Origin: Rhodospirillales bacterium
GTDB lineage: Bacteria; Pseudomonadota; Alphaproteobacteria; Rhodospirillales; Magnetovibrionaceae
Length of the DNA: 64,000 nucleotides
Direction: 5' to 3'
NCBI GenBank assembly: GCA_024653965.1
Contig: JANLGW010000026.1
Coordinates: 1 to 64,000, forward strand
Shown here: piece after piece, positions 50,061-51,760 of the stretch
How positions within the stretch are numbered: the stretch's first letter is position 1
Layout: every line of letters starts with the position of its first letter
Notes under the pieces: model-generated
Databases searched by the model: none
What the model saw: the letters and a program-made list of their open reading frames with translations, nothing else
What the model was told of the DNA's origin: nothing
Translations under genes and position numbers: made by a program

Positions 50061-50209
50061 TGCCTTGTAATCCCTACCGATATTCCAGAGCATAGTCCAC
50101 TTGGCGGATGACCCTAGTGACTCCGGCGCATGGTTGTGTTTTGCTTGCGCGCCTAAACTCAACATAGAGTGCGAATAGCCGCCGCTTATACGACAAAGAA
50201 GTGGGTGTC

Positions 50210-50500
50210 ATGGGTCCGTATAACCGAAAAATACTTGATAAAATCCTGGCTTTTATTCACGACGACGCATGTGAATTGGCGGTCCAGGCTTGGGCGGAAT
50301 ATCGCCAACGCGTTTCGGACACATGCAACAACTGCCATTACCCGGACGGTAAACAAACACACAGTTGCGCCATGTGCCTAGAAAGCAAGCTACGCACCCT
50401 TAGCCTTTATCATCACAGCGATGATTATTTTGAAAACCAGCTTGTCCACGCGGCGCGGAAATTGAACCAATTCAAACCACAACCAAGTAACGTCACTTAA
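50210..50500 (+). CDS. Small Cys-rich protein, possible zinc ribbon
   Basis: A 96-residue protein. CNNCHYPDGKQTHSCAMC has two CxxC-type pairs (C-x2-C, 11 residues, C-x2-C), a likely zinc knuckle. The flanks are helical. ATG 50210 is chosen over GTG 50201. Function unknown. A bidirectional terminator follows. Confidence 0.6.
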   Translation: MGPYNRKILDKILAFIHDDACELAVQAWAEYRQRVSDTCNNCHYPDGKQTHSCAMCLESKLRTLSLYHHSDDYFENQLVHAARKLNQFKPQPSNVT

Positions 50501-50587: not shown

Positions 50588-51085
50588 CTATTTTGCCTTT
50601 TCGCCCACCAACGAGAGGCCCATCAGCAGTTGGCGGCCTTCATTACCGCCGTCGCCCTTCAATTCCTTGGTGATGACCACACGCATGGCGTCGATGTGCA
50701 CGCGGATCATGCCCTGCTCACGCGGGCCGGCTTTATCTAGGGTTTCCAAAAGGCGGCACAGATGATCGCCGATTGCGGTCATCAGATCATAACCAAAACT
50801 GCCCCCCTGGCCCTTCATATCGTGAGAAATCTGGAACAGAGCTTCAAGATTTTCCTTATCGCTGCCCTCGCCCGCCTTCATTTTCGCAAAAGCGGCCTCT
50901 AGACGAACGAAATCATCCCGAACCCATTTCAGGTAATCGTCCGCCAGACTGGCGATAACTTCCTCGGCCCTAGCCAAGGCATCCAAATCAACGGCGCCGG
51001 GCCCGCCCTTTTCCACCTTGGACTGAAGGGTCTGCGGCGGCCTAATGATCTGCGAGCTTGCAGCAGGTTTTTGTTGGTCTGACAT
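50588..51085 (-). CDS. Stand-alone Hpt phosphotransfer protein
   Basis: A 165-residue protein. After a disordered N-terminus (about 1-30) comes a four-helix Hpt module with FQISHDMKGQGGSFGYDL; His88 is the phospho-acceptor. It lies 93 nt downstream of, and in the same direction as, the receiver protein with the FliM-like tail, so the two probably form a phosphorelay pair. No hybrid kinase is in the window. Confidence 0.85.
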   Translation of the reverse strand: MSDQQKPAASSQIIRPPQTLQSKVEKGGPGAVDLDALARAEEVIASLADDYLKWVRDDFVRLEAAFAKMKAGEGSDKENLEALFQISHDMKGQGGSFGYDLMTAIGDHLCRLLETLDKAGPREQGMIRVHIDAMRVVITKELKGDGGNEGRQLLMGLSLVGEKAK

Positions 51086-51178
51086 CCCGTGAGCACCCTA
51101 TTTTTCGATTGGCCTTAAAGGCTGCGTTAGTTTTATGTGTGCTAAAAAAACGATAGTTCCAGCAATTTTTAATGGCCC

Positions 51179-51760
51179 TTATCCGTTCAGCAAGGCATTG
51201 ATTTCGTCTTGCGACAGTTCACCCGCAGATCCACCGCCGCCACCACCGCCACCGCCACCAGCAGAAGCATCCTCGGACTTACGCCGTTCCGCCCCATTGT
51301 AGTTGGGATTGTTTTTGCGCCGACGATCCGGCCCAAAATACATGCCGGCACGCACAAACGGTCGGGGGTTTTCGATAATGGAGCGGATGCGGGAATACAG
51401 CTTCTTGGCCGAAATGGGTTTGGCCAAAAACTCGTGGACACCGCTGTCGCGGGCCTCCATCACCCGGTTCATTTCGGTATGCCCGGTCAGCATGATGATC
51501 GGCACGAACGGATTGGGACTGTCGGAACCGGTACGCACCATCCGCACGAAATCCAGACCGTCAAGCGGCGACATGTTCCAGTCGCAAACAATCACATCAG
51601 CCGGGAAGTGGCGCAATTCCTTAAATGCGTCGGCGCCATCACCCGCTTCCAGTACACTTTTAACCCCAAGCGCGTGCAGAATGCTTTTAACCAAAGCCCG
51701 CATATGCCTGTTGTCATCGACAATCAAAAAGTTGAGCCGCGACAGGTTGTAATCAGTCAT
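51179..51760 (-). CDS. Receiver-domain protein with poly-Gly linker and FliM-like CheY-binding peptide
   Basis: A 193-residue protein. Residues about 10-130 are a complete receiver (LIVDDNRHMRALVKSIL, VIVCDWNMSPLDG with phospho-Asp60, IIMLTGHTEM, FLAKPIS). Then a basic stretch (GPDRRRKNNPNYNGAERR), a run of about ten glycines, and the C-terminal end LSQDEINALLNG. That last peptide is almost identical to the N-terminal segment of FliM/FliY that binds phospho-CheY (LSQxEIDALLNG). The family with this tail is not one I know to be characterised; see findings. Confidence 0.85.
   Translation of the reverse strand: MTDYNLSRLNFLIVDDNRHMRALVKSILHALGVKSVLEAGDGADAFKELRHFPADVIVCDWNMSPLDGLDFVRMVRTGSDSPNPFVPIIMLTGHTEMNRVMEARDSGVHEFLAKPISAKKLYSRIRSIIENPRPFVRAGMYFGPDRRRKNNPNYNGAERRKSEDASAGGGGGGGGGGSAGELSQDEINALLNG

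Follow-up and report, generated by a model that had tools for sequence, protein, structure and literature searches.

CheY offers one binding face to both CheZ and FliM (PMC3774744). In Caulobacter, the Cle proteins recognise FliM by its LSQxEIDxLL motif, and their arginine-rich region (ARR), a tandem repeat of the form [YF]xGP[DE][RK]R, binds c-di-GMP even when it is grafted on E. coli CheY (PMC5677366). The C-terminal regions of the Cle proteins vary in length and sequence, and a docking peptide of the FliM or CheZ type is not reported there (PMC5677366). It is an open question by what means c-di-GMP affects the flagellar motor of Alphaproteobacteria; the Cle proteins are one known answer, from Caulobacter. 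Another Caulobacter protein relevant here is HmrX, an Hpt protein that affects motility and holdfast (PMC11481889).

The present study concerns a receiver gene and the Hpt gene next to it in the window, that is, the whole stretch of 64,000 nucleotides analysed from a Rhodospirillales bacterium of the Magnetovibrionaceae (assembly GCA_024653965.1, contig JANLGW010000026.1). The receiver protein is a REC-ARR protein of the Cle type, since its residues 137-164 are the arginine-rich c-di-GMP motif of Caulobacter Cle. As in Cle (PMC5677366), a single CheY-like receiver is followed by the tandem arginine-rich segment, with an arginine upstream of it and another in alpha4, and each genome has several paralogues; the genome of the window encodes seven further close REC-ARR-like proteins. 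Unlike Cle, the protein has a docking-type peptide at its extreme C-terminus and an adjoining Hpt gene (Table 1). The initial annotation had recognised the receiver and Hpt reading frames, the ten-glycine linker and the C-terminal sequence, all of which were confirmed. It had also rightly called the product a receiver protein but had missed the arginine-rich motif.

Table 1. Features of the receiver/Hpt locus (window positions) and related genes at other loci.
Feature	Location	Strand	Basis
REC-ARR-linker-tail protein, 193 aa	51179..51760	-	ORF; Response_reg PF00072, 3.4e-25
Receiver (REC) domain, about residues 8-130	51371..51739	-	Pfam; phosphorylation-site residues intact
Arginine-rich region (ARR), residues 137-164, RAGMYFGPDRRRKNNPNYNGAERRKSED, predicted c-di-GMP site	51269..51352	-	Tandem [YF]xGP[DE][RK]R
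Flexible linker with ten glycines, residues 165-181	51218..51268	-	Low conservation, low pLDDT
C-terminal docking-type peptide LSQDEINALLNG, residues 182-193	51182..51217	-	Conservation, codons, helix prediction
Hpt protein, 165 aa, phospho-acceptor H88 in HDMKGQGGSFGY	50588..51085	-	PF01627, 1.7e-6
Four CheZ-like proteins	G000:C81 (L211 5055-5996); G000:C97 (L212 194-892, 15449-15988); G000:C140 (L129 1-171)		
Loci with a tail-less REC-ARR gene upstream	L062, L064, L065, L070, L071, L073, L074, L078, L080, L083, L084, L086, L095, L101, L102		

The two ARR copies that follow the receiver read YFGPDRR and YNGAERR. In the second copy GA replaces GP in the window species, and GP is found in most close orthologues. 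Among the proteins that carry the C-terminal peptide (called tailed proteins below) R146, R147 and R160 of the ARR are near-invariant, and R137, the arginine preceding the ARR, is arginine or lysine in 66 of 69. The form of the motif is identical to the c-di-GMP site of Cle, so that the protein may be expected, judging from its sequence, to bind c-di-GMP. The best matches of the receiver among solved structures are CheY. Its phosphorylation residues D15, D16, D60, T92 and K114 are all intact and so is R104 of alpha4; in the 69 tailed proteins D16, D60 and K114 are invariant, position 92 is threonine or serine and R104 is kept in 68. The Hpt gene lies downstream on the same strand at an intergenic distance of 93 bp. 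No terminator-like site was found between the two genes on their strand, with the overall count of such sites not exceeding that expected by chance. The pair is flanked by uvrA (by sequence) on one side and by a gene for an AphA-like regulator on the other, and the relation of either to the pair is not obvious. The AphA-like gene is adjoined by a 99-aa ORF (50201-50500, plus strand) with CNNC...CAMC cysteine pairs, for which no Pfam match was obtained.

At the C-terminus of the receiver protein ten glycines (168-177) and the residues SAGE lead into LSQDEINALLNG. Closely similar peptides are present in the chemotaxis proteins of the same genome. FliM carries VLNQDEIDSLLGF near its N-terminus (given also as LNQDEIDSLLGF and RVLNQDEIDSLLGF), and the four CheZ-like proteins end in KSQAEIDDLFANFD, ISQDDIDSLFD, VSQADIDALFD and ISQDEIDALFD. 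The first of these belongs to the cheZ of a cluster at G000:C81 that reads, by sequence, fliL-fliM-cheY-cheZ-motB, in which a canonical CheY gene, at L211 4654-5043, stands beside cheZ and fliM; the protein encoded between fliM and cheY (L211 3536-4414) contains a docking-like stretch, LTQSEIDLLQKL. The last is a 56-aa piece at a contig end, which gave no Pfam match and is CheZ-like by its likeness to full-length relatives at L136 and L145. Up to five PF04344 matches occur per genome in the family, and those that were read have the same C-terminal docking peptide. By its position and tether the receiver tail is of the CheZ C-terminal kind, and by its sequence it belongs to the motif common to the FliM N-terminus and the CheZ C-terminus. 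The tail had been compared at first with FliM; it is indeed of that type, conserved and under selection, but the nearest peptides in the genome are those of the CheZ-like proteins (ISQDEIDALFD, ISQDDIDSLFD) and not of FliM alone. With the CheZ peptide it shares the extreme C-terminal position, the variable tether and the SQx[ED]ID.L[LF] core. It differs in its carrier, a receiver with a c-di-GMP motif in place of the CheZ phosphatase helices (in the Pfam search of the window protein Response_reg alone was found and PF04344 was absent), and in having mostly EIN or EVE where the CheZ peptide has EID. With the N-terminal segment of FliM or FliY (LSQxEIDxLL) it has the peptide core in common, whereas its own peptide is C-terminal and its carrier is not a motor protein, SpoA and FliM domains being absent by Pfam. 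Moreover, the invariant aspartate of the EID of FliM is mostly glutamate or asparagine in the receiver tail (EVE, EIN), and therefore the partner of the tail may differ from CheY.

An IUPAC pattern of the tail peptide gave only three matches in the 3.0-Mb genome, namely the receiver tail, a CheZ-like C-terminus and a zinc-ribbon/DUF3426 protein (L127 816-1871, G000:C91), and the reversed control pattern gave none. A whole-genome pattern scan likewise found no LSQ tail on the other receivers. The zinc-ribbon protein has LSQDELDNLFGG within a proline-rich linker, and the motif therefore also occurs outside the known CheY binders. This observation bears on the proposal that the tail is a tag for localisation or recruitment which is read by a partner other than a receiver (a polar hub, the C-ring or another protein), its likeness to FliM and CheZ being that of a shared short linear motif recognised by something else. 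In keeping with such a tag, some REC-ARR paralogues (L202, L207) have variants of the motif away from the extreme C-terminus. But CheY-type receivers, in FliM and CheZ, are the only established readers of the peptide, and FliM and all four CheZ-like proteins of this genome carry it; a tag of this sort thus appears rather improbable. The motif variants in REC-ARR paralogues, found also at L031, L036 and L197, are MTQDEINVLINP, MTQDQINDYFNAM and MGQDEVDIIFNP.

The initial annotation would have been contradicted by a tail that is not kept in orthologues, and the tail was found to be widely kept. In the family sample of 18 genomes, 14 had a full orthologue and all 14 of these ended in [LM]SQD[ED][IV]NALL[NDE][GM]. 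The scan of Rhodospirillales, with one genome per species, used the receiver-only patterns VDDNKHM and DGADAFKE, which are blind to the tail; it gave 73 loci, at 55 of which LSQxE[IV]xAL[LF] or a close variant forms the C-terminal end. Tailed proteins occur in Magnetovibrio blakemorei MV-1, Novispirillum, Insolitispirillum, Caenispirillum, Rhodospira, Roseospira and Telmatospirillum, and the tail is absent from the Kiloniellaceae and Hyphomonadaceae relatives. Order- and class-wide searches recovered the tail or its variants in several more alphaproteobacterial families, in a ranking that leans to tailed proteins because the search profile includes the tail. In a tree of 139 REC-ARR proteins from which linker and tail had been left out, the tailed proteins cluster, 13 changes of tail state being required as compared to 46.7 in shuffles; the tree is a quick one in which many branches are weak, and it gives no firm count of how often the tail was gained or lost. 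In many Rhodospirillales the tailed gene is preceded upstream, at a distance of about 600-900 bp, by a second REC-ARR gene without a tail, and both forms stand side by side.

Within the protein, conservation is concentrated on both sides of the linker. In 53 aligned tailed proteins the information per column was 3.84 bits for the receiver, 3.12 for the ARR and 3.53 for the tail, against 1.05 for the linker (residues 163-180 in this calculation), and the linker varies from 7 to 44 aa in length among orthologues. Pairwise comparison of the tail codons of the 14 family orthologues gave 497 synonymous differences and 167 nonsynonymous ones, a pattern that points to purifying selection. The tail is short and follows a polyglycine linker, as a functionless chance or low-complexity end might, but its breadth, its information content relative to the linker and the synonymous excess rule out such an origin, whose probability we regard as negligible. 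A C-terminal degron was also considered but is improbable, since the SQxE[IV]xAL core is fixed and free variation is seen in the final one or two residues (NG, GG, D, RGM, KGG, DM).

Structure predictions with AlphaFold2 (orthologue alignment) gave a well-ordered receiver in the window protein, a linker of pLDDT 34-39 and a helix at residues 184-192 of pLDDT about 66. In an orthologue whose linker has about 40 aa, the values were 36-42 for the linker and 67-76 for the helix. These single-chain models support a helical tail of the docking type and leave the docking surface unspecified. The fold search returned almost exclusively CheY structures, including the complex of CheY with the FliM peptide (1f4v), and is uninformative on the tail; a sequence search of the tail peptide against solved structures gave only EF-hand look-alikes.

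The main rival to binding in trans is a clamp in cis, in which the tail would fold onto the alpha4-beta5-alpha5 face of its own receiver as a pseudo-ligand against FliM, and c-di-GMP at the ARR or phosphorylation of D60 would open or lock it. Cle-type receivers bind the LSQxEIDxLL of FliM, and the window protein has both halves of such an interaction in one chain. F111 and R124, the counterparts of Y106 and K119 of CheY, are near-invariant in tailed proteins, the confidence of the helix recovers behind short and long linkers alike, and the replacement of EID by EVE or EIN could reflect a matching of the tail to R124. However, F111 and R124 are largely kept in tail-less REC-ARR proteins as well, and linkers of 7-44 aa give no sign of a geometric constraint. 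In addition, if activation raises the affinity for the peptide, a tethered peptide would outcompete FliM permanently. We consider a clamp in cis to be possible but on the whole unlikely. Binding in trans is preferred because the genome has this peptide also in its FliM and in its CheZ-like proteins, whose known relatives use it in this manner, and because linker length is free.

It was suggested earlier that the Hpt protein and the receiver form a candidate phosphorelay that tunes motility. The neighbourhood itself holds, as Hpt adjoins the receiver gene at 42 of the 55 tailed loci, the rest (about a quarter) having no Hpt gene in the fetched flank; in the majority of orthologues it is the next gene downstream. 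The active sites of both partners are intact, with H88 in HDMKG on the side of Hpt, and the histidine is kept in 71 of 78 distinct Hpt homologues with an aligned motif; transfer of phosphate from Hpt to the receiver is thus conceivable from sequence. But a relay is not a fixed design of these loci. Kiloniellaceae and several other families also have Hpt genes beside REC-ARR genes that lack the tail, which makes the REC-ARR/Hpt pair independent of the tail. Tail and Hpt as a single module were therefore rejected, each being found without the other; the pairing is old and uncoupled from the tail. Furthermore, the phospho-histidine is replaced by leucine or tryptophan in the Hpt proteins beside the REC-ARR genes at L216, L217, L219, L223, L230 and L237, and hence the pair cannot always be a phosphorelay. 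In these proteins a downstream KGQG stretch is mostly retained, and they could possibly be pseudo-Hpt binders.

A phosphorelay of Hpt and receiver could also feed into development or attachment and have no part in flagellar function, in which case the tail would act in dimerisation or stability. The persistence of the Hpt neighbour across the class, also beside tail-less proteins, agrees with it, as does the effect of Caulobacter HmrX on motility and holdfast (PMC11481889). The window Hpt has a Caulobacter homologue (L243, 32%), itself not proven to be HmrX, and HmrX is at most a possible orthologue of the window Hpt. The two are alike in that HmrX is a small stand-alone Hpt protein tied to the choice between swimming and attachment; they differ in that HmrX is placed with the hybrid kinase HmrA and not with a REC-ARR protein (PMC11481889). 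Considering the lost phospho-histidines and the tailed loci with no Hpt gene in the fetched flank, a non-flagellar relay seems quite improbable, a long shot among the explanations.

Taken together, the explanation that we favour, tentatively and at slightly less than even confidence, is that the protein is a c-di-GMP-responsive CheY-like adaptor or competitor whose tail docks on a receiver, most likely in trans, and tunes motor switching. A Cle-type CheY-like regulator would have acquired a short helical peptide of the FliM N-terminal and CheZ C-terminal kind on a disordered tether. As in FliM and CheZ, this peptide would most likely dock on the alpha4-beta5-alpha5 face of a receiver, the probable partner in trans being the flagellar phospho-CheY or another Cle-type receiver of the genome. 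Binding of c-di-GMP to the ARR could modulate docking, as could perhaps phosphorylation, possibly from Hpt. The protein would then keep CheY-like molecules from FliM and CheZ, or deliver them there, which in turn would tune motor switching. The co-occurrence with FliM is uninformative on a role at the motor because FliM is present in 137 of 148 good genomes of the order, and for the same reason absence of FliM was set aside as a test against it. It should be noted here that in one tailed genome (G022, about 98% complete) FliG is present and FliM was not found; this could be an assembly gap, and it counts against a reading in terms of CheY and the motor.

The initial annotation knew of no description of this architecture. 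The REC-ARR part has been described (PMC5677366), and what appears undescribed is the tail, along with its occurrence in one system with ARR and Hpt. In the open literature (subscription papers being outside the scope, so that absence is not proven) we found no description of this tail on REC-ARR proteins and none that combines FliM, a receiver domain, a C-terminal extension, c-di-GMP and CheZ; motif strings of the LSQxEIDxLL type were met in PMC5677366 only, as those of FliM.

One genome thus reuses a short motif in FliM, in several CheZ-like proteins and in a receiver. The tailed proteins could constitute a third and widespread class of CheY-docking proteins beside FliM and CheZ, in which the tail of a c-di-GMP-gated receiver is a competitor for phospho-CheY or associates in trans with receivers of the Cle type; we regard this wider proposal as possible but doubtful. 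If it is true, the level of c-di-GMP would be tied directly to the pool of free CheY-P, with the motor itself untouched. The prediction is that the tail peptide binds activated CheY or Cle receivers and that c-di-GMP modulates this binding, for which Magnetovibrio blakemorei MV-1, Novispirillum itersonii, Insolitispirillum peregrinum and Caenispirillum are cultivable hosts. A large conserved subclass of Cle-type proteins with the CheY-docking peptide of the motor points to a possible convergence of c-di-GMP and CheY signalling on the messenger, ahead of the motor.
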